Virus record (IMG/VR): IMGVR_UViG_3300021962_009901
Span: 1-24,068 of that record
Length of the DNA: 24,068 nucleotides
From: a virus
Strand: one strand, 5' to 3'
A program made the position numbers and the translations under genes. Numbering within the stretch: position 1 is the stretch's first letter; the number at the start of each line of letters is the position of its first letter. Of this stretch, positions 4,303-20,385 are shown in pieces. The notes beneath the pieces are model-generated. The model was given only the letters and a program-made list of their open reading frames with translations, had not been told where the DNA came from and ran no database searches.

Positions 4303-4328
4303 ATATACTAAGAGAAATTTATTCATCT

Positions 4329-5375
4329 ATGAGTGATTATAAGAAAACAGCACTTGTACTTGGTGCTGGTGGTTTTATTGGAAGCCACATGGTAAAAAGA
4401 CTTCTTTCGGAAGGATACTGGGTTCGTGGTGTAGATTTAAAGTATCCAGAATATTCTAAAACTGAAGCCCATGAATTTATTCAAGGAGACTTGAGAGACT
4501 CTGCTTTCGTTGAAAGAGTTCTCCAATTTAAGGGATATCTAGGAAATTTTTATCATTTTGTATCATCAAAATATATCGATACTTTTGATGAAATTTATCA
4601 GTTTGCTGCTGATATGGGTGGCGCAGGTTTTGTTTTCACTGGGGAAAACGATGCAGATATTATGCATAATTCTGTAACAATTAATTTGAATGTTCTTGAA
4701 GGGCAAAAAAGACTTAATGATTTTAAGTGTGTGAATAAGACTAGAATTTTTTATTCTAGTTCTGCTTGCATGTATCCAGAACACAATCAATTAGATCCCA
4801 ATAATCCAGATTGCCGTGAAGAATCAGCATATCCCGCAGCACCAGATTCTGAATACGGTTGGGAGAAGTTGTTCTCAGAGCGGTTGTTTTTCGCTTATCA
4901 TCGTAATTACGGGATCCCTGTTCGGGTTGCTAGGTATCATAATATCTTTGGACCAGAAGGAACCTGGAAAGGTGGGAGAGAAAAATCTCCAGCGGCAATC
5001 TGTAGAAAGGTTGCAGAACTTCCAAAGGAAGGTGGAACCATCGAAGTGTGGGGAGACGGTCTACAAACTCGTTCCTTCTTGTATATTGATGAATGCATCG
5101 AAGCAACCCGTAGAATGATAGAATCTGAATTTATTGGACCGATTAATATTGGTTCGGAAGAAATGGTAACTATCAATCAACTTGTAGATATTGCTGCTAA
5201 AGTTGCTAATAAAGAAGTTAAGAAAAATCATGTTCTTAACGCACCTCTTGGAGTTCGTGGTCGTAATTCTAATAATGATTTGATTCGTGAAAAACTCAAA
5301 TGGGATTATTCAATGACTCTTGAAGAAGGGATTTCTAAAACTTATAACTGGATTGAGGAGCAATTAAATGGATGA
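4329..5375 (+). CDS. GDP-mannose 3,5-epimerase homologue (plant GME-like)
   Basis: A 348-aa extended SDR. NAD binding is at LGAGGFIGSH (11-20). AADMGGAGF (93-101) and SSSACMYPE (143-151) are near-identical to the plant enzyme, as are Y176/K180 and FGPEGTWKGGREK (207-219) and the later WGDGLQTRSF. C147, Y176, K180 and K219 line up with the catalytic Cys, Tyr, Lys and Lys described for Arabidopsis GME. That enzyme turns GDP-D-mannose into GDP-L-galactose and GDP-L-gulose. The length is slightly under plant GME (about 377 aa) because the N-terminal extension is missing. A substrate change is possible but the active site is intact. It overlaps the next gene by 8 nt, and it is slightly more GC-rich than the gene before it. 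Confidence 0.88.
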   Translation: MSDYKKTALVLGAGGFIGSHMVKRLLSEGYWVRGVDLKYPEYSKTEAHEFIQGDLRDSAFVERVLQFKGYLGNFYHFVSSKYIDTFDEIYQFAADMGGAGFVFTGENDADIMHNSVTINLNVLEGQKRLNDFKCVNKTRIFYSSSACMYPEHNQLDPNNPDCREESAYPAAPDSEYGWEKLFSERLFFAYHRNYGIPVRVARYHNIFGPEGTWKGGREKSPAAICRKVAELPKEGGTIEVWGDGLQTRSFLYIDECIEATRRMIESEFIGPINIGSEEMVTINQLVDIAAKVANKEVKKNHVLNAPLGVRGRNSNNDLIREKLKWDYSMTLEEGISKTYNWIEEQLNG

Positions 5376-6021
5376 AAATTTTTCTTGGATTGAAAATAAA
5401 AGAGATGACTGGAGAGAATATGTTTTGTCCCTTGAAGATGATAATGTAAGTGAAATTTTAGGTGCCATCCCATCAGGATGGAACTTTCCCCCCAAAGGAC
5501 ATTATAAATTCTGCAAGTGGTTAATTGAAAAAATCAAACCAGAAGTTACTGTAGAACTTGGAGTTGATTATGGTTATTCTGCATTTGTGATGTCCATGTG
5601 TCAAAAAAATAAAGTCTATGGAATAGATTGTTTTGATGTATCAAAACATGGTCCCAGAATAGATGATGATTATAAATTTGTAATGTCTGTAAAAGAAAAA
5701 TTAAAGTTAGATAATTTAGAAATCATTAAAGGTTATTTTGATGATGTTGCAAAAACTTGGGATAAAGAGATAGATCTTCTTCATATCGATGGACTTCATG
5801 ATTATGAAAATTGTAAAAATGATTGCTATACTTGGGCTCCTTTTTTAAAGGAAGATGGTGTAATTCTTTTTCATGATACTGTTTCTAACCCAAATGGTGT
5901 TGGTCTTTTCTTTTCTCAACTTGAAGTTCCTAAAATTAATTTTACAAATTCTTATGGGTTGGGAGTTGCTTCTAATAATAAAGAATTGATTCAAGAAATT
6001 AGAGATACTTTTAAACTATGA
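5368..6021 (+). CDS. class I SAM-dependent methyltransferase
   Basis: A 217-aa protein of the Methyltransf_24 type. The SAM-binding motif I is VELGVDYGYS (62-71), followed by GIDCFD (85-90). The acidic/His cluster LLHIDGLHDYE (137-147) and ILFHDT (166-171) are typical of O-methyltransferases and cephalosporin-hydroxylase-like members in polysaccharide clusters. H139, D141 and D170 are candidates for metal or catalytic roles. The gene starts 8 nt inside the previous gene and overlaps the next by 4 nt (ATGA), showing translational coupling. It probably O-methylates a sugar or a small activated donor; the target is unknown. Confidence 0.78.
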   Translation: MDENFSWIENKRDDWREYVLSLEDDNVSEILGAIPSGWNFPPKGHYKFCKWLIEKIKPEVTVELGVDYGYSAFVMSMCQKNKVYGIDCFDVSKHGPRIDDDYKFVMSVKEKLKLDNLEIIKGYFDDVAKTWDKEIDLLHIDGLHDYENCKNDCYTWAPFLKEDGVILFHDTVSNPNGVGLFFSQLEVPKINFTNSYGLGVASNNKELIQEIRDTFKL

Positions 6022-7577
6022 AAGTTTTGATTCCTATGTCTGGAATGAGCAGTCGCTTCTCAAATGAAGGATATCAAATTCCAAAATATCTCATAGAACT
6101 AAATGGTAAAAAAGTTATAGAACATATAATCAACCTTTATCCTAAAGATTGTGAGTTTATTTTCATTCTAAATGAAGTGCATGAGAAAATGCATAATGTA
6201 AGTAAATTTCTTGATACATTATGTGATAATAAAAATGTAATAATTATTGACTCTCATAAGAAAGGACCTGTTTATACAATCTCTTGCGTTTATGATTTAA
6301 TAAAAGATGATGAACCAGTGATTATAAATTATTGTGATTTTTCGATGTATTGGGATTATCAGGACTTTGAAAACTTTGTTAATGATACTCAGTGCGATGG
6401 TTCTGTTGTTTGTTATACTGGATTTCATCCTCATATGTTGGGTGGAGATAATTATGCATTTTGTAAGACTGATCCAGATAATAGAGTTTTAGATATACGC
6501 GAAAAACAACCTTTTACTGACAATAAAATGTCAGAATACGCTTCTACTGGAACATACTACTTTAAAAAAGGAAAATTTATTAAAAAATATTTTGACGAAT
6601 TGATAGGTCAAAATATAAATCTCAGTGGAGAATATTATGTAAGTCTTGTTTATAATCTTCTTATTAAAGATAACTTTTTTGTAAATGTTTATGAAGTTCC
6701 ATATATGCTTCAGTGGGGAACACCTTTAGATCTTAATATGTATTTGAAGTGGTCTCATTACTATGAGAAAGCATTGCTTGGGCAAAAAAATTCAAAGATA
6801 GAAAATTGTACAACTTTAATTCCAATGGCAGGATTTGGAAGTCGTTTTTCTAAAGAAGGTTTTGATGTACCAAAACCTTTTATAGAAGTTAATAATGATA
6901 GTATGGTAAATCAGTCTATCAAATGTCTTCCAAAAACAGATAAAGTTTTATTTGGTTGTCTAAAAGAACATAAAAATTTTTCAATAACTGGAGATGTCAT
7001 TTGGTTTGATGAAGTACCTCCTGGACAAGCTTGTACCACCGAAAAAATGTTAGAGTGTGTCGAAGATGAGTCTATTCTCATTTCTGCTTGTGACAATGGA
7101 GTTTTTTATGATTCTGCCAAATTTTTATCTTTAATTGAAGATTTAAATAATGATATTATTGTTTGGAGTTATAAAGACAACTATGCAAGTTTTTATAATC
7201 CAGATATGTACTCTTGGTTAGAAGTCGATAAAGAACAAAATATTACCAATGTAAATGTCAAAAAGTTTAAGGGAAATGATCCACTCAACGAATATGCAAT
7301 TGTTGGGACAATGTTTTTTAGAAATAAAGAGATATATTTAAAATCTCTTTATCAGATGTATAATAAAAATAAAAAAGTTAATAATGAGTTTTATATTGAT
7401 ACCTTGTTGAACGAATCAATTAAACTTGGATATAAAGTTAAGAACTTTGAAATAGATAACTATATCTGTTGGGGTACTCCAAACGATTTAAAAACATACC
7501 AGTACTGGCAGAAATTTTTCAGTAACGTTGATTGGCACCCTTATAACTATATAAATGACTACTTTACAAAAAACTGA
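6018..7577 (+). CDS. tandem double nucleotidyltransferase (two NTP_transferase domains)
   Basis: A 519-aa protein made of two homologous halves. Domain 1 (about 1-250) begins LIPMSGMSSRF with R13 and K23. Domain 2 (about 265-515) begins LIPMAGFGSRF with R276 and K286. Both halves keep the nucleotide-binding loop, the downstream Lys, an acidic residue in a YCD/ACD context (the likely metal ligand), a G(E)YY / EFYID segment, and a matching WGTP (L/N)DL near the end. Single-domain relatives transfer a nucleotide to a sugar or choline phosphate. A fusion of two could make a pseudo-dimer or activate two substrates. Domain 1 has Ser-Ser where GxGxR enzymes have Gly-Ser, so the halves may have diverged. 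It lies beside an aldolase-like and a HAD gene, suggesting a joint pathway. Confidence 0.85.
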   Translation: MKVLIPMSGMSSRFSNEGYQIPKYLIELNGKKVIEHIINLYPKDCEFIFILNEVHEKMHNVSKFLDTLCDNKNVIIIDSHKKGPVYTISCVYDLIKDDEPVIINYCDFSMYWDYQDFENFVNDTQCDGSVVCYTGFHPHMLGGDNYAFCKTDPDNRVLDIREKQPFTDNKMSEYASTGTYYFKKGKFIKKYFDELIGQNINLSGEYYVSLVYNLLIKDNFFVNVYEVPYMLQWGTPLDLNMYLKWSHYYEKALLGQKNSKIENCTTLIPMAGFGSRFSKEGFDVPKPFIEVNNDSMVNQSIKCLPKTDKVLFGCLKEHKNFSITGDVIWFDEVPPGQACTTEKMLECVEDESILISACDNGVFYDSAKFLSLIEDLNNDIIVWSYKDNYASFYNPDMYSWLEVDKEQNITNVNVKKFKGNDPLNEYAIVGTMFFRNKEIYLKSLYQMYNKNKKVNNEFYIDTLLNESIKLGYKVKNFEIDNYICWGTPNDLKTYQYWQKFFSNVDWHPYNYINDYFTKN

Positions 7578-8245
7578 TGGAAATACTAGAACTTGCAAGA
7601 GAAATAAGTGATTATACTATATGTGGTGAAGGAAATGTATCTGTAAGAACAGGAGAAAATACTTTCTTAATTAAGGCAAGTGGGACAAGTCTTCATACTT
7701 TATCTGAAGAAGATCTAACTTTATGTAATACTAACGGAGCACAAATAGAACTTCTTCATAAAAAACCAAGTATTGAAACTTCTTTTCACGCTTGGATTAT
7801 GAAGACTTTTCCACATGTTAATTTCATTGCTCATACTCATCCTCCACATACAACTAAAATTTTATGCTCCGAACCACCTGTTCTTTATGATTTTGCCGAG
7901 CACAGGTGGTTTCCAGATCAAATTGTAAGAAATGGAACTAAGTCCTGCGTAGTTCCTTATGCACCTCCAGGAGAGGCAATTCTAAAATTGGTTGAAAAAC
8001 ATGTATCTACTTTTGTTGAGCGTGAAGGATTTTTCCCAAAGTTGATTCTTCTTCAAAACCATGGTATAATCACAGCATCTGCATCTAAAAAAGACTGCGC
8101 TGCTGCAACTTTAATGTGTGAAAAATCTGCTGATATCTTTGTAGGAGCAAAACTTCTGGGTGGAGTTAATTTTCTGACTAAACAAGAAGTCGCTGATGTT
8201 GATACCTGCCCAAATGAAAATTATCGGAGAAATCTGTATCAATGA
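7577..8245 (+). CDS. class II aldolase/adducin family protein
   Basis: A 222-aa protein with the family layout: GEGNVSVR (17-24, the phosphate-binding loop), KASGTSL (33-39), catalytic Glu candidate E67, zinc ligands in HTHP (H86, H88) and a third His in QNHGI (H162). Family enzymes cleave or form sugar phosphates such as fuculose-1-P and ribulose-5-P, or decarboxylate. All metal ligands are present, so it should be active. The ATG at 7577 overlaps the previous stop by one base, and the end overlaps the next gene by 4 nt. Together with the double nucleotidyltransferase before it and the phosphatase after it, it may make a small phosphorylated precursor. The substrate is not known. Confidence 0.85.
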   Translation: MEILELAREISDYTICGEGNVSVRTGENTFLIKASGTSLHTLSEEDLTLCNTNGAQIELLHKKPSIETSFHAWIMKTFPHVNFIAHTHPPHTTKILCSEPPVLYDFAEHRWFPDQIVRNGTKSCVVPYAPPGEAILKLVEKHVSTFVEREGFFPKLILLQNHGIITASASKKDCAAATLMCEKSADIFVGAKLLGGVNFLTKQEVADVDTCPNENYRRNLYQ

Positions 8246-8553
8246 AAGTTATCTATGTTGATATTGACGAAACCATATGTCATAGAGAAACTTCTATTGA
8301 CTTTGGTACAACTCATGATTATACAAAAGCACAACCTATTAGAGAAAATATAGAAAAGATTAACAAACTTTATGATGAAGGTCATACAATTGTTTATTGG
8401 ACTGCTCGTGGATCTAGAAAACAAATTGATTGGACAAATTTAACCAGACAACAACTTGCTGATTGGGGTGTAAAGTATCATGAGTTGCGAGCAGATAAAC
8501 CATTTTATGATTTGTTTATTGAAGATAAAGCATTGAGAATTGAAGAATTATGA
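8242..8553 (+). CDS. HAD-superfamily phosphatase, short (103 aa)
   Basis: A capless HAD protein with motif I DIDET (D7, D9), motif II Thr in YWTARG (T54), motif III Lys K86 and motif IV IED (E94, D95). This short form is common in capsule and LPS clusters, where it removes phosphate from sugar or polyol phosphates. It is tightly coupled to both neighbours by 4-nt overlaps. Its place after the aldolase-like gene and before the GDPD-like gene fits a route through phosphorylated intermediates. The substrate is unknown. Confidence 0.83.
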   Translation: MKVIYVDIDETICHRETSIDFGTTHDYTKAQPIRENIEKINKLYDEGHTIVYWTARGSRKQIDWTNLTRQQLADWGVKYHELRADKPFYDLFIEDKALRIEEL

Positions 8554-8999
8554 TACTTATATCTCATAGAGGGAATATAAAGGGCCCAGTTCCGGACAAA
8601 GAAAATCGTCCAAGTTACATTGATTGTGCGATTGGAAATGGATATCATGTAGAAATTGATATTCGTTCAATTGATGGTGAGTTGTGGTTGGGTCATGATG
8701 AACCACAATATAAGGTTGATCACAACTGGTTAGATAAACGTAGAAATTATTTGTGGTTGCACTGCAAAAATCTTGAAGCAGCAAAAGAGTGTTGGGCGTA
8801 TCATTCGTTTTGTCATAGCAGTGATCCTTTTACCTATACTTCCACAGGTAAAATTTGGTTACATGATCTAACTCAAAAAATTGATAACAATACTATTATT
8901 CCACTGATTGATCAAATTGATATTGAAAAATTCTCATTAGTGGGTAAAAATCCTTTTGGCATATGCACTGATTATCCTATTCTTATTAAAAAATTTTAA
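8550..8999 (+). CDS. glycerophosphodiester phosphodiesterase-like protein, compact
   Basis: A 149-aa protein with the key GDPD residues: SHRG (H6, R7), VEIDIR (E35, D37), DGELWLGHDEP (D42-P52, with H49) and a C-terminal CTDYP of the kind that ends many family members. Family enzymes hydrolyse glycerophosphodiesters with a divalent metal. Typical members are about 240 aa or more, so this is a minimal version, although both ends of the domain are present and it does not look truncated by mutation. No signal peptide is seen, so it acts in the cytoplasm. It may act on a glycerophospho- or other phosphodiester decoration made in this cluster. Catalysis is plausible but not certain given the size. 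Confidence 0.68.
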   Translation: MILISHRGNIKGPVPDKENRPSYIDCAIGNGYHVEIDIRSIDGELWLGHDEPQYKVDHNWLDKRRNYLWLHCKNLEAAKECWAYHSFCHSSDPFTYTSTGKIWLHDLTQKIDNNTIIPLIDQIDIEKFSLVGKNPFGICTDYPILIKKF

Positions 9000-9001
9000 T
9001 T

Positions 9002-9751
9002 ATGAAAATAGCACTTTGTTTGTCTGGTCAGCCCAGATCTATTGATGCTGGTTTTTATGCACTAAACGAATCTATATTGAAACATAATGATGTTGATGTA
9101 TTCATTCATACTTGGTTTGATGAAAACAATTTAAGTACAAATTCGGTTATTCCTGGAAGGGAAGCAAACAAACTGGATTCCAATGCAATTGAAAAATTAA
9201 AAGAACTTTACAATCCAAAAAAGATATTAGTCGATAAACCAAGATTTTGGGATGAAAAATATGAATTCACAGATCTTTGCTTTGTCAAAGCTTGGACTTG
9301 GGCTTTAGAAACTAGGTCGGGATTGGAGTCTGCGAAGGACTATATTTGCAATACTGCAAACAGTATGTTTTATAGTATAATGATGTCAAACATGATCAAA
9401 AACGAATATTCTAAAGAGAATGGTATTCAATATGATTTGGTCATTAGGAACAGGATTGACTTTGCTCCTCATATTGAATTAAAATTTGATGAAATGTTCA
9501 CGGATGAATTTGAAGATGATGTTTTAATTTATCATGATTTACAACAACCAGACAATATGATTGCAGATTGGTTTGCAATGGGGAGAACTAAAACAATGAA
9601 TATTTACAGTGATGTATATTCTAATATAGAAAACTTAGTCAAGCAATCGAATCATATTGATGGATATTGGTGTAATGAACTTTTACTCAAACATCATATT
9701 CAAAATAACAACATAAAAATTGAAAAAGTAAATTTTGAAGTTCATTACTAA
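9002..9751 (+). CDS. putative glycosyltransferase-like protein (SGQPR family)
   Basis: A 249-aa soluble protein starting [13 protein letters not shown], then [12 protein letters not shown], a conserved start seen in uncharacterised proteins of polysaccharide clusters and large viruses. [10 protein letters not shown] segment in the middle carries the R.R.D pattern found in nucleotide-sugar binding regions of GT-A-like folds. No classical DxD is obvious. It lies 2 nt after the previous gene and 7 nt before gmd. I infer a sugar transferase from this and from context, but I do not recognise a CAZy family with confidence. Confidence 0.6.
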
Positions 9752-9758
9752 TAAAGAT

Positions 9759-10784
9759 ATGAAAACAGCATTAATTACAGGAATAACAGGACAAGATGGT
9801 TCATATCTTGCTGAACTTCTTTTGGAAAAAGGATATAAAGTACATGGAATTATTAGAAGGAATTCTACATCAGATTGTACTGATAGAATTAAAGAGTTAT
9901 TAACTAATCCTAATATAAAATTGGATTATGGTGATCTGAGTGATTTTTCAAATGTAACATCTATCATTCAGGAAACTCAACCTGATGAAGTTTATAATCT
10001 TGCAGCACAAAGTCACGTAAAAGTTTCTTTCTCTAATTCTTTATATACTACTGATGTAGATGCAGTTGGAGTTGTTAGACTTCTTGAAGCAATTAGAGTT
10101 CTGGGTCTTATTGATAAAACAAAATTCTATCAGGCTTCTACTTCAGAATTGTTTGGCAAAGTTCAAGAAGTACCTCAAAAAGAGACCACTCCTTTTTATC
10201 CTAGATCTCCTTATGGAGTATCTAAATTGTATGGTTTTTGGATTACTAAAAACTATAGAGAATCATATAATTTGTTTGGGTGTAATGGAATTTTATTTAA
10301 CCACGAATCTCCTAGAAGGGGAGAGTTGTTTGTCACAAGAAAGATTACAAAAACTCTTTCTGAAATAAAAAATGGTAAGAGAAAGGGTCCTCTTGAGCTT
10401 GGAAATCTAGATGCAAAAAGAGACTGGGGACATGCAAAAGATTATGTTAGATCTATGTGGATGATGTTGCAGCATGATTCTCCGGATGATTATGTTGTTT
10501 CAATGGAGCAACAACATTCTGTTAGAGACTTTGTAAATATTTCTTGCAAATACATTGGATTTGATATAGAATGGTATGGTGAAGGTATAGATGAAGTTGC
10601 CATAGATAAAAACACAAATAAAATCTTGGTACAAATCAATCCCGATTATTATAGACCTGCCGAAGTAGAGTCATTGGTAGGTGATTGTACCAAAGCTAAA
10701 AATATTCTTAAGTGGAAACCTGAGTATTCTTTTGAAAATCTTGTTGAAGAGATGTGTAAATCTGATTTAAAACTGACCAAATGA
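9759..10784 (+). CDS. gmd: GDP-mannose 4,6-dehydratase (Gmd)
   Basis: A 341-aa extended SDR with the Gmd-type motif [10 protein letters not shown] (8-17), STSELFG with T128/E130, catalytic Y152/K156 (PYGVSK) and [10 protein letters not shown], which is diagnostic for Gmd. It converts GDP-D-mannose to GDP-4-keto-6-deoxymannose, the precursor of GDP-L-fucose, GDP-rhamnose and related sugars. The ATG at 9759 is preferred over a TTG at 9735 because it begins the usual N-terminus (MKTALITG). The next gene overlaps by 4 nt. No clear GDP-fucose synthase (Fcl) follows. One of the other SDR genes, or the host, must complete the pathway. A GT11 fucosyltransferase 3 kb downstream suggests the product is used as fucose. 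Confidence 0.95.
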
Positions 10785-11707
10785 AACAAAAAATTATTTT
10801 GTGGGGATATCCACACCTAACACATACCCATTCTTACATTTATTATGGATTAAAAAAAGGATTTGAACATCTTGGATGTGATGTTTTCTGGTTTCATGAT
10901 GGAAATTATCCATCTACAACTGAATTTGACTATGAGAATTCAGTATTTTTCGTAGATAATCAAGGAAGAACTGAAAATAATGTCCCTATTTTAGGATCTG
11001 GAATTTATTTTTCATATGATACTTTTACAAATGTGAATAAGTATTTGGGAAAAGTTAAAGGATTAGTTAATTATAGAGTCGCTGAATATAAGCATCCTGG
11101 TGTTGATAATGAAAGGTATGTTCAAATTGAAAAGGGCGTAGTATTTGATACTCAATCTTCGGAAGAGTATAATGTGATTCATTTTAATTATGCAACAAAT
11201 CTACTTCCTCATGAAATTGATTTTGAATGGGCAAATAAAAAAAGGAACAATGAGTATAATTTTATTGGAACAATTCATTCCCCACGTCCTAATTTTGAAC
11301 CACTTCATCAAAATTTCATTCAGATAATTAAAGATAACAATATACAATTTAATCATAGAGATCCTTGGATTAATCCTGCTACTGAGGAAGAAAATATAGA
11401 ACTGATGCAAAAATCTATATTTGTTCCAGATTTTAGACCAGCTGAGCAAAAGGCAAATCTATATACTTCTGATAGGATTATGAAAGCAATCAGTTATGGT
11501 TGTCTTGTAGTTTCAGACTGTCATTATGCAAAGAATTTCATTGATGAACAGTTATTGACATCAGAAAATGCACAAGAAATTTATGATCTTGGAATGGAAA
11601 ATCAATATAATATTGATCTAATCGTTCATTTGATGGAGGTTGTTAAAAACAACCATACATATATTAACCGCTGTAAGGGACTTTTAAGTATTATTGAGGA
11701 GTTTTAA
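10781..11707 (+). CDS. putative glycosyltransferase (GT-B C-terminal type)
   Basis: A 308-aa soluble protein. The N-terminal part ([12 protein letters not shown]...) looks like a Rossmann half with [17 protein letters not shown]. The C-terminal part has [17 protein letters not shown] (about 232-248), which resembles the R-x-x-E-x-x-x-x-G-x-x-x-(I/V) donor-binding helix of glycosyltransferases of the Glyco_trans_1_2 kind, with Lys in place of Glu. Start and gmd stop overlap by 4 nt; the gene downstream begins 2 nt after its stop. A sugar transferase is the best guess, and the family is not certain. Confidence 0.6.
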
Positions 11708-11709
11708 TA

Positions 11710-12945
11710 ATGTCGTCTTATAAAGAAATCGAAGTTTGTAGAGTTACGAAACAAAAAGATCTTGTTTCATTTCTTAATCTTGGTGAGCAAAGTTTAACTG
11801 GAGTTTTTCCTCGCCCTGAGGAATCTGTAGGAATTGGACCAATTGAATTAGTTTGGAGTCCATCTAGTTATTTGGTCCAATTAAAACATACTTATGAACC
11901 CACAGAAATGTATGGGGATAACTACGGATATCTTTCCAGTTTGAATAATTCAATGGTTCAGCATTTGAATCAAAAAGCAAATTATTTGACTGAACTAGCA
12001 GACTTGAAAAATGGTGATGTTGTAGTGGATATTGGTTCAAATGATTGCACCTTTTTAAAAGCACTACCATCTTATACAAATAGAATTGGCATTGATCCAA
12101 CCATTAAAAAGTTTTCAGATTATTATCCAGAAGAAATTACTGCAGTTGCAGATTTTTTCTCTAAAGAATCTTATTATTCTGTAGAATCTTCTAAGAAGTG
12201 TAAATTAGTAACTTCAATTTCTTGTTTTTATGATTTGGATGATCCTGTATCTTTTGTAAAAGATATTTGTGAAATTTTGTCTGATGATGGTCTATGGCAT
12301 TTTGAACAAGCTTATTTGCCATCAACTTTGAGAGCAACTTCATACGATACTGCTTGTCATGAACATATTGAATATTATTCAATGCTTTCTGTTAATAAGA
12401 TTCTTTCTCTTGCTGGAATGAAGATTGTTGATGTTTCTTTGAATGATATAAACGGTGGTAGTTTTGCCGTAACAGCATGTAAAGATACAAATAATCAAAT
12501 CAAGGTTAATTCGTCTGTAATTGATTGGTTAATCGATGAAGAATATAAAATGGGACTGGACACTCCTAAACCATACTTTGACTTTGCAGAAAGAGTAAAT
12601 TCTCATAGAGAATCTTTAGTCAATTTAATTAGAAAAATTAGATCTGAGGGCAAAACAATTTATGGATATGGAGCATCTACAAAGGGGAATGTTATGCTTC
12701 AGTGGTGTGGACTAACTCCAGATGATATTATTGCTATTGGAGAAGTAAATCCAGACAAATATGGATGTGTAACTCCTGGAACAAATATTCCGATTATCCC
12801 AGAGTCTGAAGTTAAAGCAATTAATCCAGATTATATGATTGTTTTACCTTGGCATTTTAGAAATGGAATTCTCCAAAGAGAAAAAGAGTATAGAAATTCT
12901 GGAGGTAAATTTATTTTTCCTTTACCATATATTGAGATTGTATGA
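11710..12945 (+). CDS. sugar C-methyltransferase family protein lacking zinc cysteines
   Basis: A 411-aa protein with the three-part layout of NovU/TylC3-type NDP-sugar C-methyltransferases: N-terminal Methyltransf_13-like part (1-80), SAM-binding domain with DIGSND (107-112) and C-terminal Methyltransf_14-like part carrying YGYGASTKGN and PDYMIVLPWHFR. Relatives methylate carbon 3 or 5 of dTDP-4-keto sugars. The N-terminal zinc site is normally four Cys in two CxxC pairs. Here C10 survives, but its partner is T13 and the second pair is S50/S53, so the site is lost. The Shine-Dalgarno GAGGAG (11696-11701) lies 8 nt before the ATG. With RmlB nearby, a branched-chain deoxysugar is a natural product to suspect. 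Confidence 0.82.
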   Translation: MSSYKEIEVCRVTKQKDLVSFLNLGEQSLTGVFPRPEESVGIGPIELVWSPSSYLVQLKHTYEPTEMYGDNYGYLSSLNNSMVQHLNQKANYLTELADLKNGDVVVDIGSNDCTFLKALPSYTNRIGIDPTIKKFSDYYPEEITAVADFFSKESYYSVESSKKCKLVTSISCFYDLDDPVSFVKDICEILSDDGLWHFEQAYLPSTLRATSYDTACHEHIEYYSMLSVNKILSLAGMKIVDVSLNDINGGSFAVTACKDTNNQIKVNSSVIDWLIDEEYKMGLDTPKPYFDFAERVNSHRESLVNLIRKIRSEGKTIYGYGASTKGNVMLQWCGLTPDDIIAIGEVNPDKYGCVTPGTNIPIIPESEVKAINPDYMIVLPWHFRNGILQREKEYRNSGGKFIFPLPYIEIV

Positions 12946-13805
12946 TGAATAAAATTTTAATTCTGGGATCTAGCGGACAAATAGGAGCATACTTAACTGA
13001 ATATTTTAAAAATAAAGGTAAGTGTGTTTATGAATTTGATGTTGTAAATGATTTGTCTGAGGACTTATCTATCATTCCCAATCCTCTCCTTGAAGAAAAA
13101 ATTGCAGATTCTGATTTTGTATTTTTTCTTGCGTTTGATGTTGGTGGATCTAGATATCTTAAAAAGTATCAACATACTTTCCAATTCATTGATAATAATA
13201 CAAGGTTGATGGCAAATACTTTTGGTCTTCTTCAAAAGTATAATAAGAAATTTGTATTTGCATCATCTCAAATGAGTAACATGAGTTACTCTCCTTACGG
13301 AGTTCTTAAGAATGTTGGAGAACTCTATACAAAATCACTTAATGGTTTGATAGTTAAGTTCTGGAATGTTTATGGTATTGAAAATGATTATGAAAAATCT
13401 CATGTAATCACAGATTTTATCCGAAAGGGATTTGAGACTGGTGTTATTGATATGCTCACGGATGGTGAAGAAGAAAGAGATTTTCTATATGCCGAAGATT
13501 GTTGTGAAGCACTTGAAACAATAATGGAGAATTATACAGAATTCACTCATGAAGACAATCTTCACATCACAAGTTTTAGATATACAAAAATCAAAGATAT
13601 TGCTAGCATAATCGTTGGGCAATTTAATTTGATTGGTAAATATGATGTTGTTGTAAAACCATCTTTGGACAAAGATTCGGTTCAACTTAATAAGAAGAAT
13701 CAAGCGGATACTTTTATTACAAAATGGTGGATGCCAAAAACTTCGGTTGAACATGGTATTGAAAAAATATTTAAAGACATGGAGAAAAAGTATGCTAGCA
13801 TGTAA
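12942..13805 (+). CDS. NAD-dependent epimerase/dehydratase family protein
   Basis: A 287-aa extended SDR with Rossmann motif GSSGQIG (9-15) and Y119/K123 as the likely catalytic pair (PYGVLK), followed by KFWNVYG and an ERDFLYAED segment typical of sugar-nucleotide SDRs. It follows the C-methyltransferase with a 4-nt overlap. A second ATG at 12945 is possible. The usual Ser/Thr upstream of the Tyr appears in FASSQ (S108/S109). Candidate reactions are 4-keto reduction of the methylated sugar or epimerisation; it could also provide the Fcl step missing after Gmd. The fold is sure and the reaction is not. Confidence 0.8.
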   Translation: MMNKILILGSSGQIGAYLTEYFKNKGKCVYEFDVVNDLSEDLSIIPNPLLEEKIADSDFVFFLAFDVGGSRYLKKYQHTFQFIDNNTRLMANTFGLLQKYNKKFVFASSQMSNMSYSPYGVLKNVGELYTKSLNGLIVKFWNVYGIENDYEKSHVITDFIRKGFETGVIDMLTDGEEERDFLYAEDCCEALETIMENYTEFTHEDNLHITSFRYTKIKDIASIIVGQFNLIGKYDVVVKPSLDKDSVQLNKKNQADTFITKWWMPKTSVEHGIEKIFKDMEKKYASM

Positions 13806-14634
13806 TCAATTGGGAAATAATGGAAGACTTGGAAATCAAATGTTCCAGTATGCGGCACTCAAAGGAATTGCTTCTAGGAGAAAATTTGACTTTTGCATAC
13901 CTCCCTTTGAATCGGGTGGCATAGATAACTATGGTCTAGGAGAAGCATTTGATATTAAATCAAATTTTTCTCTAGCAAATTTTCCGTCTGTTGGAGAACC
14001 TCATTTTCACTACAGTGAAGATTTTCATAACAACTGTCCAGATAATGTAACTCTTGTTGGGTATTTTCAATCAGAGAAATACTTCAAGGAAGTAGAAGAA
14101 CAAATCAGAAAAGATTTTACTTTTAGGAAAGAGTGGCTAGAACCTTGTTTAGAATTTAGAAAGCAGTTTGGTGATCAAGAGATTGCTTTTTTGCATGTTC
14201 GACGAGGAGATCCAAATCTTGTAGATCGTAGAGGATTTAAGTGGGCATATGTTAATTGTTCTGATCAGCATCCTGTTCAACCAATACAATACTATGAAGA
14301 AGCAATTAAACTCCTTCCTGAAGATATGCCTATTCTTGTATTCTCCGATTCGATTGAGTGGTGCAAAGAACAAGATATTTTTAAACCAGATAGATTCATG
14401 ATGTCTGAACCCGAAGATAAGTATTCTGACGGTGCTCTGGTTCCTTTCACTGATTTGTGTTTAATGTCTTTGTGTGATCATGCTATTATTGCTAATAGTA
14501 GTATGAGCTGGTGGGGTGCTTGGTTACAAAAAAATCCAAACAAAAAAGTAATTGCTCCCAAAATGTGGTTTGGACCTGCCTATGCTCAACATAATACAAA
14601 AGACTTGTATTGTGATGGTTGGGAGATTATTTGA
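13792..14634 (+). CDS. alpha-1,2-fucosyltransferase family protein (GT11)
   Basis: A 280-aa protein with the full GT11 signature: GRLGNQMFQYA (11-21) near the N-terminus, HVRRGD (135-140), the GDP-fucose binding motif, and ANSSMSWWGAWL near the C-terminus. Family members transfer L-fucose from GDP-fucose to O2 of galactose, as in bacterial H-type O-antigens and human FUT1/FUT2. The ATG at 13792 has an excellent Shine-Dalgarno GGAG (13781-13784) and puts the signature where bacterial enzymes have it; an upstream TTG at 13747 is not needed. No membrane anchor is seen, as usual for bacterial forms. The donor pathway starts with the gmd gene in the same run. Confidence 0.93.
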   Translation: MLACNQLGNNGRLGNQMFQYAALKGIASRRKFDFCIPPFESGGIDNYGLGEAFDIKSNFSLANFPSVGEPHFHYSEDFHNNCPDNVTLVGYFQSEKYFKEVEEQIRKDFTFRKEWLEPCLEFRKQFGDQEIAFLHVRRGDPNLVDRRGFKWAYVNCSDQHPVQPIQYYEEAIKLLPEDMPILVFSDSIEWCKEQDIFKPDRFMMSEPEDKYSDGALVPFTDLCLMSLCDHAIIANSSMSWWGAWLQKNPNKKVIAPKMWFGPAYAQHNTKDLYCDGWEII

Positions 14635-15458
14635 TGATTTATATTTCTGGATCAAATGGACTAATAGGTAAAGAACTATCTAAAAATATTAATAATTATA
14701 TTCCAATTTCTTATCGTGATGAAGATCCAGAAATAAATTTTTTACCAAATTCAATTTTGATACATTTATCATCATCAATAACTCCAAGAAACGGTTTAGA
14801 AGATTTAGAAAAGTCATTGCAAAGTGATGTATTAATACCACTCAAATTATTTCAAAGATATTTAAAAACAAATCCTAACGGAAAAATTATTTTTCTTTCT
14901 ACGTCTGGTGACTTACATAGTTCTGAATACAATGTCATAACTGATGAAAATTCTATTCCTAATCCAAAGTCAATCTACGGAACTCATAAATTACTTTTAG
15001 AAAGTTATATTAAACTACTTCATAAAACTAATAATTTTACCAGTATAATTTTTAGAGTTACTAATGTTTATGGTGGCAAACCAAGTAAATCTAGAGTTAA
15101 TGGAATCATAGATAAACTCATTACGAGTGATGTTATAACAATAACAACGAGTGTTGAAGAGACTGTTAATTTTATTCATATGGATGATTTGATTAGTTTG
15201 TTATTGAAGGCAATACATGCAGAGATAAGTGGGTATAATTTGTTTTTAGTTGGCGGTTCTAATTCAATTTCAATTGGTGGATTAATTAAAAAAATTCAAA
15301 ATTATGTTTCTCCCAAAATCATATACAAAAATCAAAATTCAAAACCATTATACATAAACATAGACACTACAAAGGCACAAAAATATTTTAATTGGGAGTG
15401 CAAGTATTCGATTGATAGTGGTATAATTAAACAAGTAAAATCTTTGAAATCTTTATGA
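14634..15458 (+). CDS. NAD-dependent epimerase/dehydratase family protein (reductase candidate)
   Basis: A 274-aa SDR with a shortened nucleotide-binding start GSNGLIG (6-12) of the RmlD/Fcl-like kind (MIYISGSNGLIGKEL), and Y115/K119 (YGTHK) after a STSG segment (89-92). The start resembles 4-ketoreductases that finish deoxysugar nucleotides more than dehydratases. It lies between the fucosyltransferase and GT6 genes; the ATG shares one base with the upstream stop and the end overlaps the next by 4 nt. The very low GC content and Ile/Asn/Lys-rich composition are noteworthy. The most likely job is a keto reduction of a GDP- or dTDP-sugar, which is inferred. Confidence 0.78.
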   Translation: MIYISGSNGLIGKELSKNINNYIPISYRDEDPEINFLPNSILIHLSSSITPRNGLEDLEKSLQSDVLIPLKLFQRYLKTNPNGKIIFLSTSGDLHSSEYNVITDENSIPNPKSIYGTHKLLLESYIKLLHKTNNFTSIIFRVTNVYGGKPSKSRVNGIIDKLITSDVITITTSVEETVNFIHMDDLISLLLKAIHAEISGYNLFLVGGSNSISIGGLIKKIQNYVSPKIIYKNQNSKPLYINIDTTKAQKYFNWECKYSIDSGIIKQVKSLKSL

Positions 15459-16174
15459 AAGTTGCTATTTCATTTTTTGGTACTGGGAGTTATTTAAATT
15501 TTTTACCAAACTGGTATGAGTCGATTGAAAATAATCTTTTTCCAGAAATAGAAAAAAAAATTATCGTTTTCACTGATGGTGAAGGCGATTTTCCTGAAAA
15601 TATAGTTAAAGTAGAAACAGAACATTTTGGATGGCCAGAAGTTTTTCATAAAACTTTTGAAACAATTCTGAGAGCAAAGGACATTATTAGTGAATGTGAT
15701 TGGTTCATCTCAATTGATGCTGATATGATAGTTAAAAAAACAATTACTGTAGAAGAATTTTTAGATGAATCAAAGGATTATATTGGAGTACATCACCCAT
15801 GTGCTTACTTAAAACTCAAACCTCATGACAAATTCCCTGGTTCTTTTGATGTAAATCCTTTATCTAATGCATGTATCACTGAGGATATGGATACTTCTGT
15901 TTATTATCAGGGATGTTTATGGGGAGGAAAAGTTCCTGAAATTATTAATATGATGGAATTGTTGGATAAATGGACTAAGGAAGACATAAAAAACAATAGT
16001 GTTCCTGTTTGGTATGAGGAATCTTATTTTAATAAATTCTTCATTACAAATAAAGATAAAGTTAATACTCTTTCTCCTTCTTTTGCATATCCAGAAGACT
16101 ATAAAGAGTATTGTGATTTTGAAGAAAAGATCACGCATATTTCTAAAAATAATCAACAATATCATAATCAGTAA
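15455..16174 (+). CDS. family 6 glycosyltransferase (GT6, ABO-like)
   Basis: A 239-aa GT-A fold enzyme. The start FFGTGSYLNFLPNWYES matches the GT6 opening, SIDADM gives an intact DxD (D88, D90), YYQGCLWGG corresponds to the acceptor/donor segment seen in ABO enzymes, and WYEESYFNKFF is the conserved W-x-E/D-E-S-x-x-N-K-(Y/F) block. GT6 enzymes add alpha-1,3-linked Gal or GalNAc with retention, typically onto fucosylated galactose. Many cellular bacterial GT6 members have NxN instead of DxD, so this version resembles the animal type. It has no membrane anchor. Its location near a GT11 gene is functionally suggestive. Confidence 0.87.
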   Translation: MKVAISFFGTGSYLNFLPNWYESIENNLFPEIEKKIIVFTDGEGDFPENIVKVETEHFGWPEVFHKTFETILRAKDIISECDWFISIDADMIVKKTITVEEFLDESKDYIGVHHPCAYLKLKPHDKFPGSFDVNPLSNACITEDMDTSVYYQGCLWGGKVPEIINMMELLDKWTKEDIKNNSVPVWYEESYFNKFFITNKDKVNTLSPSFAYPEDYKEYCDFEEKITHISKNNQQYHNQ

Positions 16175-16176
16175 TT

Positions 16177-16953
16177 ATGTCTAAAAAATTATCAGTTTAT
16201 TATCACATCTGGAGTCCAGATGGTTCAGACCTTTGGAAATTAATGGTCGATGAACAACTCAAAAGAATTTATCGTAATGGTCTTCCAGAAGAAGCATCTA
16301 TTTACTGTGCGATCAATGGACCTCAGGCAAATAGAATTGCAGAGTATGTTTCAATTTATAATTGGTTAACTGTTCTGGATGTCTCAATAGATGAGAGTGA
16401 ATATGAAGGATTTACTCTTAAAAAATTGTATGAAGAAACTCATTTTAATCCTGACTTAAAAGCAGTTGCGTATTTGCATACAAAGGGAATTAGTCACATG
16501 TGTGGCGTAAGAGACCACTATTCTGATCGTAAATTTAGAGCTGTTAATAGTTGGAGACATCAGATGGAGTGGGGAATTCTTGATAGGTGGAAAGAAGCAG
16601 TTGATAAACTTGACGAATATCAAGTTTCTGGTGTAAACTATTGTTTAGATCCATGGCCACATATGAGTGGAAATTTTTGGTGGGCTAGGTCTGATTATGT
16701 AAAGACATTAATTCACCCAACCCGAGACAGATTTCCTAATGACAGTAGAGATTTTGGTCCAATTCAAAGAATGAATTTTGAAAAATGGATCGGACTGAAT
16801 AATCCAAAGTCTTTTAGTTTTTATAATGCTCCATTTAGTTACGATTTTAAAGGTATGAAACCAGATATACAACCAACACCACCTGGAGAACCACATTGGT
16901 TTTGGTTATACAGAGACGACATTGAACCCTATTATAGAAAGGAAGGTAACTGA
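16177..16953 (+). CDS. uncharacterised glycan-cluster protein, likely glycosyltransferase
   Basis: A 258-aa soluble protein. Recognisable features are YHIWSPDG near the start, VAYLHTKGISH in the middle, WRHQMEW, and WPHMSGNFWWARSDY (about 160-174). This HTKG ... SGNFWWA pattern occurs in uncharacterised proteins of polysaccharide clusters and large DNA viruses, and SGNFWWA suggests an acceptor-binding loop. Many Trp residues are consistent with sugar binding. It lies 2 nt after the GT6 stop and 1 nt before the next gene's start. I infer a transferase but do not know a characterised member. Confidence 0.58.
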   Translation: MSKKLSVYYHIWSPDGSDLWKLMVDEQLKRIYRNGLPEEASIYCAINGPQANRIAEYVSIYNWLTVLDVSIDESEYEGFTLKKLYEETHFNPDLKAVAYLHTKGISHMCGVRDHYSDRKFRAVNSWRHQMEWGILDRWKEAVDKLDEYQVSGVNYCLDPWPHMSGNFWWARSDYVKTLIHPTRDRFPNDSRDFGPIQRMNFEKWIGLNNPKSFSFYNAPFSYDFKGMKPDIQPTPPGEPHWFWLYRDDIEPYYRKEGN

Positions 16954-16954
16954 C

Positions 16955-17677
16955 ATGACTTTTGGATGCTTTCATACTGTTTATGAAAACAAAAAAGCAA
17001 CGGAATTTATTTTGCAAGAATTTAGAAAATTTCATCCAGATGCACCATATACTTTAATCTGCGATGGTGGAGTAGATTATTCCGATTTAGCAAAAAAATA
17101 TAATTGCAAATACGTTCATTCGTACATGAGAATTGGTAGGAGGAACTGGGGAGATCCTTCTGGTGTTTATGGTTTTACTAAGGATGAAAGTCTTCATTGG
17201 ATTCATCATTTTCGAGAAGCAGCAAAGCATGTCAGAGAAAATGGGGGAACACATATGATTATGATGGAGGATGATGTTCTCACTCAAGGAAAAGTGAAAA
17301 TAGATCCATCTTGGGAGTGTGCTGGATTTGATGTTCCTGGCAATAAAATTTCTCCAGGTCTTCTTTCATATATTGTTGATAAGTATGGAGCTAATCCAAA
17401 TGTTGATTGGTATGGAGCAGGCGGTGGAAGCATCTATAATATTGATACATTTCTAGATAACTATCATAAAATATATGATTTTATTGATGAAGAATTTGAT
17501 CTAATTTTAAATACAATGGACCATAGATTTGGATGGTTGGATCTTTATATGCAAATTGCCTATTTTATTTGTGGTAAAGATTATTCAATTAATACTAATT
17601 TGACTGAGACTTGGAAAACCCCAGATTTTAGGAATTCCGAATACACACTTATTCATGCATATAAAGAACTTTACTAA
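16955..17677 (+). CDS. putative glycosyltransferase, 240 aa
   Basis: The protein starts MTFGCFHTVYENKKAT and has MIMMEDDVL in the middle (about 104-112). This is an EDD motif after hydrophobic residues, as in GT-A enzymes where it binds metal and nucleotide sugar. YGAGGGSIYN (about 153-162) fits the following acceptor region. The ATG at 16955 has a purine-rich GGAAGG upstream and avoids the TTG at 16922 inside the previous gene. The gene ends one base before the next start. A family number cannot be assigned by eye; a sugar transferase is likely. Confidence 0.68.
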   Translation: MTFGCFHTVYENKKATEFILQEFRKFHPDAPYTLICDGGVDYSDLAKKYNCKYVHSYMRIGRRNWGDPSGVYGFTKDESLHWIHHFREAAKHVRENGGTHMIMMEDDVLTQGKVKIDPSWECAGFDVPGNKISPGLLSYIVDKYGANPNVDWYGAGGGSIYNIDTFLDNYHKIYDFIDEEFDLILNTMDHRFGWLDLYMQIAYFICGKDYSINTNLTETWKTPDFRNSEYTLIHAYKELY

Positions 17678-17678
17678 T

Positions 17679-18620
17679 ATGAACATTGCACTTATCGGAC
17701 CTGGTATTATGCCTATTCCCCCTGATGGGTGGGGAGCGGTTGAAAGTTTAATTTGGGATTATGCTCTTCAATTGGAGAAATTAGGACACACTGGAACCAT
17801 TATCAATACTCCAAATTGGAATGAAATATTGAATTATTTGAAAGAAGATAAGTATGATTTTGCTCATCTTCATTATGATGTTTTTCATGAGTTGTTGGAT
17901 CTAATTCCTGATATTCCTAAGATTGCTATAAGTAGTCATTATCCATATATCGACCAACCTTATATGCATCGTAGAGATGGATATGATAAGACATTTGATT
18001 TTATCATCAAAAATAAAAAATATTATATCTTTTGCATCTCTAAAAAAGATTATCAAACGTTTAAAAATGCAGGTGCTGACGAAAGCAAACTTTTACTTTC
18101 TGAGAATGGTGCTAATCATGAAACATTTACTTATTGCAAGGATCCTGTAAAGGCAGATAGATCTTTGTATCTTGGGCAGATTTATCATCGCAAGAAACAG
18201 TGGTTATATCAATCTATTAAATGTATTGATTTCGTGGGAAAGAATAGTAATTCTACTCCCTTTGATCCGTCAATTAATTATCTTGGTGAATGGTCGGATG
18301 AATATAAAAAACAACATCTGACGGACTACGGAAACCTTGTTCTTCTTTCTGATGGAGAAAATGGAACTCCTTTAGTAGTTAAAGAAGCATTAATTAATGG
18401 TCTTGGAGTGGTGATCTCTAAGTATGCTGCTCATGATGTTGATACTTCTCTACCTTTTATTACTTTGATAGAAGATGATAAGTTGGAAGATATTGAATAT
18501 GTAAAAAATAAAATAGAAGAAAATCGTGAAGTATCTTTAACTATGCGTGATGAAATTCGTGACTATGCGATGGAGAATTTTTCTTGGGAAAAATTAGTAA
18601 AACTCTACGTGCAGAATTGA
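17679..18620 (+). CDS. GT4-like glycosyltransferase, copy 1
   Basis: A 313-aa GT-B fold protein. It begins MNIALIGPGIMPIPPDGWGA, the family's N-terminal glycine loop followed by WGAVE; next come a donor-side ENGANHETF segment and DGENGTPLVVKEALINGLG, the E-x7-E-like donor motif with the second Glu at KEAL. It is clearly a paralogue of the next gene, with the same landmarks throughout. Relative to that copy it lacks some residues in the middle and has NGTPLV where the other has AHPLV. The start at 17679 is 1 nt after the upstream stop; a longer start at 17655 is unnecessary. It probably adds a hexose to the glycan. Confidence 0.82.
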   Translation: MNIALIGPGIMPIPPDGWGAVESLIWDYALQLEKLGHTGTIINTPNWNEILNYLKEDKYDFAHLHYDVFHELLDLIPDIPKIAISSHYPYIDQPYMHRRDGYDKTFDFIIKNKKYYIFCISKKDYQTFKNAGADESKLLLSENGANHETFTYCKDPVKADRSLYLGQIYHRKKQWLYQSIKCIDFVGKNSNSTPFDPSINYLGEWSDEYKKQHLTDYGNLVLLSDGENGTPLVVKEALINGLGVVISKYAAHDVDTSLPFITLIEDDKLEDIEYVKNKIEENREVSLTMRDEIRDYAMENFSWEKLVKLYVQN

Positions 18621-18638
18621 AAAGATGGAGTCAATTCA

Positions 18639-19592
18639 ATGAACATCTGTATTATTGGTCCAGGTTTTTCTCAAATACCTCCAGTTGGTTGGGGTGCGGT
18701 TGAGATTGTAATTTGGGATACTGCAAATGCTTTAAAAGAGTTGGGGCATCAAGTGCATATCATTAATACCACAAACCCACAAGAAATCATTGGTACGATT
18801 AATCAATTAAATCCTGACTTTGTACATGTTCATTATGATGATTATGTCTTTCTTTATCCATACATTCAATTTCCAAAAGCAATTACAACTCATTATGGGT
18901 ACTTAGAAAGACCCGAAATGTATGGGGCATACTCATACAAAGCAAATGGGTTTGCAAATATTAAACCAAATGTTTTTGCTTTATCCGATGGGATTAAAAA
19001 CATTTATAAAAATCAAATGAGAATTCCTGAGAACAATTTATATGTTGTTCCTAATGGAGTTTCTAATGAAAAATTTAGAGTTACTGATGATCTAAAATAT
19101 TCGGATAGAAGCATTTATCTTGCAAAAGTAGATTATAGAAAAAGACAAACTCTTTTTCAGAGTATTCCCTCAATTTATTACGCAGGAAATATTGTAGATG
19201 AAAGATTTGAGATTAATAAAAACTATCTTGGTGAATGGTCAAAAGAGGATTTATATGAAAATTTAACTGATTATGCTAATCTAATTTTACTATCTGATGG
19301 TGAAGCACATCCACTTGTTTGTATGGAGGCACTTGCGGCTGGATTAGGATTGGTAATTTCTGAATGGGCTACTGCTAATCTAGATCTAACAAAAGATTTC
19401 ATCACAGTGATTCCTGAGAGTAAGATTACTGATCTTGATTATATTTCAAATAAAATAGAAGAGAACAGAATTGTATCTTTGAAAAAAAGAAAAGAAATAG
19501 TAGAATATGCAAGGCAGTTTAGTTGGAAAACACAATTAGAAACCTACTACATTCCTTCTGTAAAAAATGTCATAGAAAAAACTAATGGATAA
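18639..19592 (+). CDS. GT4-like glycosyltransferase, copy 2
   Basis: A 317-aa GT-B protein, the tandem paralogue of the gene before it. Shared landmarks are IGPGFSQIPPVGWGAVE near the start, VVPNGVSNEKF in the middle, LGEWSKED, and DGEAHPLVCMEALAAGLG as donor-binding motif with E in CMEAL. The donor motif here is closer to the classical GT4 form (E-x-F/H-G/P-L-x-x-x-E-A-x-A-x-G) than in copy 1, so the two may use different donors. GGAG (18627-18630) lies 8 nt before the ATG. The 18-nt gap before it is among the largest in the cluster. The end overlaps the GT25 gene by 8 nt. Confidence 0.84.
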   Translation: MNICIIGPGFSQIPPVGWGAVEIVIWDTANALKELGHQVHIINTTNPQEIIGTINQLNPDFVHVHYDDYVFLYPYIQFPKAITTHYGYLERPEMYGAYSYKANGFANIKPNVFALSDGIKNIYKNQMRIPENNLYVVPNGVSNEKFRVTDDLKYSDRSIYLAKVDYRKRQTLFQSIPSIYYAGNIVDERFEINKNYLGEWSKEDLYENLTDYANLILLSDGEAHPLVCMEALAAGLGLVISEWATANLDLTKDFITVIPESKITDLDYISNKIEENRIVSLKKRKEIVEYARQFSWKTQLETYYIPSVKNVIEKTNG

Positions 19593-20385
19593 GAATAAAT
19601 CAACATATAAACTTAAAAACATTGGGCCCATTTATTACTTAAATCTTGATGGCCAACCCGAAAGGCGTCAATATATGGAGGACCAATTTAAGTATTGGGA
19701 GATAGAAAATTATACTCGCATCTCTGCATATGATGGTCGTGAAGATGACTTGAGTGATATTCTTACCGGACGTTATCCCGAAATGATGTCTTCTGGTGAG
19801 ATTGGATGTATTACATCTCATCTAAAAGCCATCAAACATTGGTATGAAACATCAGATAGTCCATATGCAATTATTATGGAAGATGATTGCAATCTTGATC
19901 TTGTAAAGTATTGGAACTTTACTTGGTCAGATTTTTATGCACATATCCCTTATGACTGGGATATTGTTCAAATTGCAATTATCTGTACTGGTGATATTCA
20001 TGTAAAACTTCATAAAAGATTTGTGAATGATTTTTCAACTGCTTGCTACCTAATTACTCGTCATCATGCAGAAAAACTCTTGAGGTTTCATGTTCGGGGA
20101 GACAAGTATAAACTTGATAATGGCGTAAAACCAAGACCAGTTGCTGACGACTTGATTTACAATTCTGGGAATACTTATTCGATTCCTCTTTTTCTTTATA
20201 GAATTGAACTTGGGTCGTCTATTCATCCAGAACATATTGATGCATTTCATAAAGGCAATCATGACGCATTACTAAATTTTTGGAGTCAGAATGGACCAGA
20301 GATTGATATTAGAGATTATATGAATTATGATCCTTATTTGGGACGAATAACAGAAAATTCTGCTGTTCAGCAGCAAAACCCTTGA
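19585..20385 (+). CDS. glycosyltransferase family 25 (LPS biosynthesis) protein
   Basis: A 266-aa protein with the GT25 pattern: IYYLNLDGQPERR (N20, D22, R27, R28), SSGEIGCITSHLKAI (69-83, where the G-E-I/V-G-C-x-x-S-H block is diagnostic), and IIMEDDC (E99, D100, D101) as the metal-binding acidic motif. STACYLITRHHAEKLL follows as the typical second half. GT25 enzymes transfer galactose or similar sugars to LPS core or O-antigen. It is the last gene of the glycan run. Its stop codon overlaps the -35 element of a promoter, and a terminator follows 32 nt later. Confidence 0.9.
   Translation: MDKNKSTYKLKNIGPIYYLNLDGQPERRQYMEDQFKYWEIENYTRISAYDGREDDLSDILTGRYPEMMSSGEIGCITSHLKAIKHWYETSDSPYAIIMEDDCNLDLVKYWNFTWSDFYAHIPYDWDIVQIAIICTGDIHVKLHKRFVNDFSTACYLITRHHAEKLLRFHVRGDKYKLDNGVKPRPVADDLIYNSGNTYSIPLFLYRIELGSSIHPEHIDAFHKGNHDALLNFWSQNGPEIDIRDYMNYDPYLGRITENSAVQQQNP

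Follow-up and report, generated by a model that had tools for sequence, protein, structure and literature searches.

A candidate two-step glycan-capping cassette of T4-like cyanophages built from exchangeable donor-plus-transferase modules

Why would a cyanophage carry members of the two glycosyltransferase families that generate ABO antigens, and which sugars would it attach with them? The question is raised by the virus record IMGVR_UViG_3300021962_009901, a 24,068-base fragment of a phage genome that was analysed as a whole (hereafter the window) and whose genes match Kyanoviridae phages, which indicates a phage of the T4-like cyanophage (cyanomyovirus) type. A GT11 gene and a GT6 gene lie here in a long glycan cluster together with Gmd, the GDP-mannose 4,6-dehydratase (Table 1). 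The original prediction described a GT11 protein with an HVRRGD motif, a GT6 protein with a DxD motif and Gmd in one operon, and family profiles agree on all three (PF01531, PF03414 and TIGR01472), which share the plus strand of a strand-uniform cluster. Its further proposal of an ABO-type module held in part: the two transferases do form a unit with ABO-like logic, recurring in 69 of 72 phage clusters, but fucose as the first sugar, and with it an ABO epitope, was not upheld for the window. We think it fairly probable that the locus serves a T4-like cyanophage as a cassette for two-step glycan capping, consisting of two exchangeable donor-plus-transferase modules, acting on the host surface and represented here by an L-galactose type with an SDR-linked GT6.

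Scanning viral contigs with GT6 profiles yielded 156 GT6 open reading frames (ORFs) in the fetched loci, which collapsed into 75 clusters at 90% identity, 72 of them with at least 1.5 kb of upstream sequence. A GT11 gene lies within 3 kb upstream of GT6 on the same strand in 69 of these 72 clusters (43 adjacent, 19 about one gene off and 7 about two genes off); among the other three, GT11 is farther off in two and missing in one. The converse does not hold, as most loci from a GT11 scan have no GT6 in the fetched stretch. That GT6 is almost always accompanied by GT11, and GT11 often found without GT6, is expected if GT6 acts on the product of GT11. The pairing exceeds chance and represents a common cassette, which is present in the deposited genomes of S-CAM9, Bellamy, SynMITS9220M01, ACG-2014f, DSL-LC03, B23 and P-SSM2. 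The GT6 gene in P-SSM2 that the original prediction mentioned is indeed there; this phage also has a GT11 gene upstream of GT6, with two genes between them, and a true GDP-fucose synthase (Fcl). In the open-access PMC literature we found no paper treating the two genes as a unit in phages, in line with the same prediction, though the pair sits in public genomes. It is conceivable that each of the two enzymes has its own acceptor and that their proximity only reflects the gathering of cyanophage glycan genes in variable regions, as the many additional transferases within the cluster and the differing histories of GT11 and GT6 revealed by the supplier and SDR labels (see below) would allow. We nevertheless consider this improbable, given that GT11 stands just upstream of GT6 in 69 of 72 clusters, an arrangement that recurs in P-SSM2 with a GT6 sharing only about 30% identity with the ACG-2014f enzyme. 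An origin of the pair in the host was rejected: GT6 matches occur in just 3 of 300 host-family genomes (L396, L397 and L398), and none of these three has a GT11 match in a search in which no control genome gave a signal.

The family assignments are firm. GT11 matches PF01531 with an E-value of 9.5e-20 (71.4 bits, cut-off 23.9), and H135, R137, R138 and D140 of its donor-binding motif are invariant in a 32-sequence alignment. A sequence search against the PDB returned weak FUT8 matches only, and the relationship was settled by a fold search with the AlphaFold2 (AF2) model (pLDDT 88), which retrieved NodZ (Z 13.7), FUT8 (Z 13.6) and Arabidopsis FUT1 (AtFUT1, Z 13.2). The HxRRxD motif and the modelled GT-B fucosyltransferase fold together place the protein in CAZy family GT11, and its predicted activity is the transfer of an L-galacto-configured sugar that is bound to GDP. 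GT6 matches PF03414 (E 8.7e-17, 61.3 bits, cut-off 25), and phmmer relates it to BoGT6a at 4e-22 and to the human ABO transferases at about 1e-10. Both the catalytic Glu (E189) and the DAD motif (residues 88-90) are present; DAD occurs in 71 of 71 phage GT6 clusters, whereas bacterial GT6 enzymes have NxN at the same place. The WHDE loop, which is common in GT6 without strictly defining it, is absent from the window protein and reads WYEE instead, so that the nucleophile Glu is retained and the preceding Asp has become Glu. In BoGT6a the corresponding loop, W189-H190-D191-E192, is reported to be key for substrate binding and catalysis (PMC3961637). The donor pocket of the phage enzyme (Q152, C154 and E188) follows neither the human GTA nor the human GTB pattern.

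Which L-sugar would GT11 transfer? Gmd by itself is insufficient for GDP-fucose, and no Fcl was found in the 24-kb window, with the rest of the phage genome lying outside it; a complete GDP-L-fucose supply is therefore not encoded with the pair in the window, and the host could provide it. SDR1, SDR2 and SDR3 were considered as candidate fucose synthases and discarded, since alignment to Fcl and to GDP-mannose 3,5-epimerase (GME) shows no conserved Cys. Three close relatives (L004, L005 and L013) retain the order GME-MT24-SDR2-GT11-SDR3-GT6, and the stretch fetched around it contains no Gmd; Gmd, which is separated from GT11 by three genes in the window, is thus unlikely to serve the GT11-GT6 pair and probably feeds another sugar together with the ORF that follows it. 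This ORF (10781-11707) belongs to no Pfam family and accompanies Gmd in several phages without Fcl; the two likely give a different Gmd-derived sugar.

The window does encode a GME, which matches the Arabidopsis enzyme at 5.6e-82 in phmmer (next family 1e-25). Cys147, Tyr176, Lys180 and Lys219, whose active-site roles we take to be those of the Arabidopsis enzyme, are invariant among four aligned phage GMEs. The product of GME is GDP-L-galactose. The gene that immediately precedes GT11-GT6 in S-CAM9, Bellamy and SynMITS9220M01 bears the annotation UDP-glucose 4-epimerase or generic NAD-dependent epimerase and is actually a GME, the three proteins being 64, 77 and 79% identical to that of the window; for the S-CAM9 protein, the match to Arabidopsis GME reaches 6e-81 (next family about 1e-23). 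INPHARED holds GME in 37 cyanophage records, and the name GDP-mannose-3',5'-epimerase is used only in S-SCSM1, the remaining annotated ones being called UDP-glucose 4-epimerase, nucleotide-sugar epimerase or generic epimerase/dehydratase. Most phage GMEs are hence filed under names that call for correction. Fucosyltransferases, including an Arabidopsis alpha-1,2-fucosyltransferase, are able to accept GDP-L-galactose (PMC8787198).

Comparison of gene neighbours bears on the donor. Supplier calls, which use BLAST score cut-offs and a reference set of small size, divide 71 GT6 clusters into 31 with GME, 21 with Fcl, 17 with neither supplier, a single record (L190) that carries both and one cluster with mixed members, so that GME and Fcl are seldom together (Fisher p 8e-6, for clusters that are not mutually independent). 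Searches of 16 whole records found GME only in nine, Fcl only in seven and both in none, with GT6 in 14 of the 16; GME without Fcl is the state of S-CAM9, Bellamy and SynMITS9220M01, whereas ACG-2014f and DSL-LC03 have Gmd plus Fcl and lack GME. On a tree of the 72 GT6-partnered GT11s the supplier label changes three times, and the window GT11 groups with the GME-linked GT11s. As predicted from this grouping, supplier-less loci whose GT11 falls among the GME-linked ones (L031, L059 and L067) have GME further upstream, and the supplier-less fucose-type loci have no GME farther off, some of them (L060, L264 and L289) having Fcl there. Genomic context accordingly points to GDP-L-galactose rather than GDP-L-fucose as the donor of the window GT11. 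In the host family, Fcl occurs in 183 of 300 genomes and GME in one, a genome that had been picked as a centre because it carries GME. Since host Fcl is common and GME nearly absent, a fucose-type phage can rely on its host, whereas an L-galactose-type phage must carry its own enzyme. Separately, a GME 74-75% identical to the phage form is present in the Prochlorococcus single-cell assemblies L317, L318, L319 and L321, despite its near-absence from the host family. The residue at the HxRRG/T position was examined as a donor determinant and kept as a lead only: the raw association is strong (Fisher 4e-8), with too few independent switches on the tree.

These data also bear on a true ABO-like fucosylated epitope, in which GT11 would use host-made GDP-L-fucose, GT6 would add Gal or GalNAc, and GME would serve another transferase. 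Both families are confirmed, the predicted fold is that of a fucosyltransferase, Fcl is encoded by the 183 host-family genomes mentioned above, and relatives with Gmd and Fcl (ACG-2014f and DSL-LC03) or with Fcl (P-SSM2) probably make fucosylated products, so the window GT11 could draw on host GDP-fucose. We regard this as rather unlikely for the window, which has no Fcl, whose close relatives have no Gmd near the cassette, whose GT11 belongs to the GME-linked group, and whose GT6 combines a pocket of neither GTA nor GTB type with an altered loop.

The two halves of the cassette have moved separately. Over the 71 clusters, the supplier label changes three times on the GT11 tree and nine times on the GT6 tree. 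An SDR gene lying between the two transferases shows the mirror image, with one change on the GT6 tree against seven on the GT11 tree. The loop reads (W/F/Y)(Y/H/F)EES in all 19 GT6 clusters that have this SDR, and the 52 clusters lacking it all show WHDES or WHDET. The SDR and the loop change are one evolutionary event, retained across the clade while the GT11 partners changed. Individual loci illustrate the exchange. In L168 (contig 3300011116_000553), SDR2 (81%), GT11 (78%) and the pair of genes that follow GT6 (87% and 83%) resemble those of the window, yet the GT6 is 57% identical and of the WHDES type, and SDR3 is missing. Conversely, L020 and L017 share GT6 (82%) and SDR1 (70%) and differ in GT11 (46%) and in supplier (GME versus Gmd plus Fcl), and L306 and L079 share a GT6 at 91% identity with different suppliers and a GT11 at 67%. 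The unit thus consists of two donor-plus-transferase modules that are exchanged independently. The AF2 model of SDR3 (pLDDT 88) has MoeE5 and UDP-sugar 4-epimerases as its closest folds; from this predicted fold, the agreement of the SDR with the GT6 tree and the loop change, it follows that SDR3 is very likely to produce or modify the donor that GT6 uses. A nucleotidyltransferase (CYT) and SDR1 lie between GT11 and an EES-type GT6 in L015, L017, L018 and L021, which suggests a non-standard activated sugar for the GT6 of these loci. SDR2 stands directly upstream of GT11 in 18 GME-only clusters and in no FCL-only cluster, and we propose it as an optional modifier of the GT11 donor; as a marker of a single GT11 clade it was rejected, with 13 changes on a larger tree. 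MT24, the methyltransferase after GME, could possibly O-methylate the L-sugar.

GT6 enzymes attach alpha-1,3 sugars to Fuc-alpha-1,2-Gal. The scheme that we infer for donors, linkages, order of action, acceptor and purpose builds on this chemistry. In the first module, GME, with SDR2 and perhaps MT24, would provide a GDP-L-galactose-type donor, from which GT11 would place L-galactose, or a form of it modified by SDR2 or MT24, in alpha-1,2 linkage on a galactose. In the second, SDR3 would make or modify the donor of GT6, which would add the resulting sugar in alpha-1,3 linkage to that galactose after the L-sugar has been attached. The product would be branched like an ABO antigen, L-galactose or a derivative replacing L-fucose, and would carry an unusual third sugar. 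Its likely site is a host surface polysaccharide or lipopolysaccharide, where it may serve to alter receptors during infection. Within the cassette SDR2, GT11, SDR3 and GT6 overlap by 14, 1 and 4 bases, SDR3 separating the two transferases, so translational coupling is likely.

Decoration of the virion or of another phage product, instead of the host surface, is an alternative that we hold to be doubtful. In its favour, the ACG-2014f cluster has a tail fibre gene nearby; against it, no T4-like late box TATAAATA occurs in the glycan cluster of the window, and neither point is strong. The single late box of the window (23622-23629) precedes a C39-peptidase ORF at 23655; about three boxes would be expected by chance in the window as a whole. 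The absence of the box from the cluster fits, weakly, an expression of the glycan genes ahead of the structural genes.

Several points count against a host-surface cassette of the L-galactose type. GME lies 8.4 kb away from GT11 in the window, which as a 24-kb fragment may leave an fcl gene elsewhere in the genome, and both suppliers occur in L190. The donor could be host GDP-fucose, given that Fcl is encoded in about 60% of host-family genomes. Other HxRRGD-bearing GT11s use GDP-fucose, and the HxRRG/T difference, while correlated with the supplier, is confounded with ancestry. The supplier switched only about three times on the GT11 tree, leaving few independent events, and the association of SDR and loop has a single origin. 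The identity of GME is no proof that its product reaches GT11 rather than another transferase of the cluster.

A more specific form of the proposal is a dedicated, modular L-galactosyl ABO pathway, in which GME and an L-galactosyl-specific GT11 act first and an SDR-supplied GT6 second, the host receives a sugar (L-galactose or a derivative) whose nucleotide donor the host family almost never makes, and phages swap modules and thereby change the epitope; we see it as a real possibility that falls somewhat short of probable. Vertebrates and some bacteria are known to carry ABO-type antigens, and the same two-step logic appears as a standard, exchangeable cassette of marine cyanophages. Comparison of gene neighbours here predicts a donor for each transferase, which sequence alone rarely permits. 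If true, GT11 would include dedicated L-galactosyltransferases and GT6 an enzyme with a new donor, and the cassette would offer a concrete test of whether phages redecorate their hosts with sugars that these are unable to produce.

The surroundings of the cassette contain further genes of interest. A terminator-like hairpin (1486-1510) lies ahead of the glycan cluster. Near its start, a dTDP-glucose 4,6-dehydratase and an RmlC-like epimerase (2040-3483), with no evident RmlA or RmlD, adjoin a nucleotidyltransferase (1543-2043) and another SDR (3476-4294). Beyond its end, a phage porin with SLH and OprB domains (20472-21941) is 71% identical to the porin of Synechococcus phage S-SRM01 and has partial matches in S-PM2 and S-CREM1. 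Ferredoxin and peroxiredoxin genes (22377-23588) stand beside the cluster, as they do in DSL-LC03.

Table 1 Features of the window that belong to the cassette and its glycan cluster
Feature	Position	Strand	Basis or remark
Whole glycan cluster, cassette inside	1543..20385	+	ORFs and families: nucleotide-sugar enzymes, several transferases
GME, GDP-D-mannose to GDP-L-galactose	4329..5375	+	phmmer, active-site residues
MT24 methyltransferase, after GME	5368..6021	+	PF13578 4e-21
Gmd, GDP-mannose 4,6-dehydratase	9762..10784	+	TIGR01472 520.9 bits (cut-off 415)
SDR2, overlaps GT11 by 14 bp	12942..13805	+	Epimerase Cys shared by Fcl and GME is absent
GT11 transferase, 280 aa, GME-associated type	13792..14634	+	PF01531, phrog_2644, predicted fold, tree placement
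HVRRGD donor-binding motif (HxRRxD) of GT11	14194..14211	+	Residues 135-140
SDR3, extended-SDR nucleotide-sugar epimerase-like, between GT11 and GT6	14634..15458	+	Epimerase PF01370 1e-15
GT6 transferase, 239 aa, DAD motif of metal-binding type, WYEES loop	15455..16174	+	PF03414, phrog_3317, BoGT6a match
DAD (DxD) motif of GT6	15716..15724	+	Residues 88-90; aligned to BoGT6a N95-A96-N97
WYEES loop of GT6	16010..16024	+	Aligned to BoGT6a W189-H190-D191-E192

Among known systems, the cyanophages P-SSM2, ACG-2014f, S-CAM9, Bellamy, SynMITS9220M01 and DSL-LC03 resemble the window in having GT11 upstream of GT6 and a GDP-L-sugar supplier in the genome. The supplier is Fcl in P-SSM2, ACG-2014f and DSL-LC03 and GME in S-CAM9, Bellamy and SynMITS9220M01, and the latter three differ from the window in having no SDR gene between GT11 and GT6. 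Gmd, fcl, GME and an alpha-1,2-fucosyltransferase have been reported together in one cyanophage, S-SCSM1 (PMC9602691); however, it is absent among the GT6 matches listed, and the link from supplier to transferase was not made in that report (PMC9602691). Plant fucosyltransferases likewise accept GDP-L-galactose made by GME (PMC8787198), but their promiscuity appears in mutants or in vitro, with no dedicated gene cassette (PMC8787198). For GT6, the closest solved structure is BoGT6a of Bacteroides ovatus (4AYJ and 4AYL), which aligns over the full length at 4e-22; unlike the phage protein it is metal-independent with an NxN motif, uses UDP-GalNAc and has a WHDES loop. The human FUT1/FUT2 (GT11) and ABO GTA/GTB (GT6) enzymes share the families, the predicted chemistry, the catalytic Glu and the DxD motif with the phage pair, whereas the phage pocket has Q152 and C154 in place of human L/M266 and G/A268, and W-H-D-E has become W-Y-E-E. 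The O-antigen of E. coli O86, which is blood-group B-like and built by WbwK (GT11) and WbnI (GT6) (PMC4202792), offers the same succession of GT11 and then GT6 on one galactose, giving an ABO-type trisaccharide. The cassette of the window departs from it in the DAD motif of its GT6, where bacterial GT6 enzymes have NxN, in having GME and no Fcl to supply the L-sugar, in the SDR gene between the two transferases and in its phage setting.

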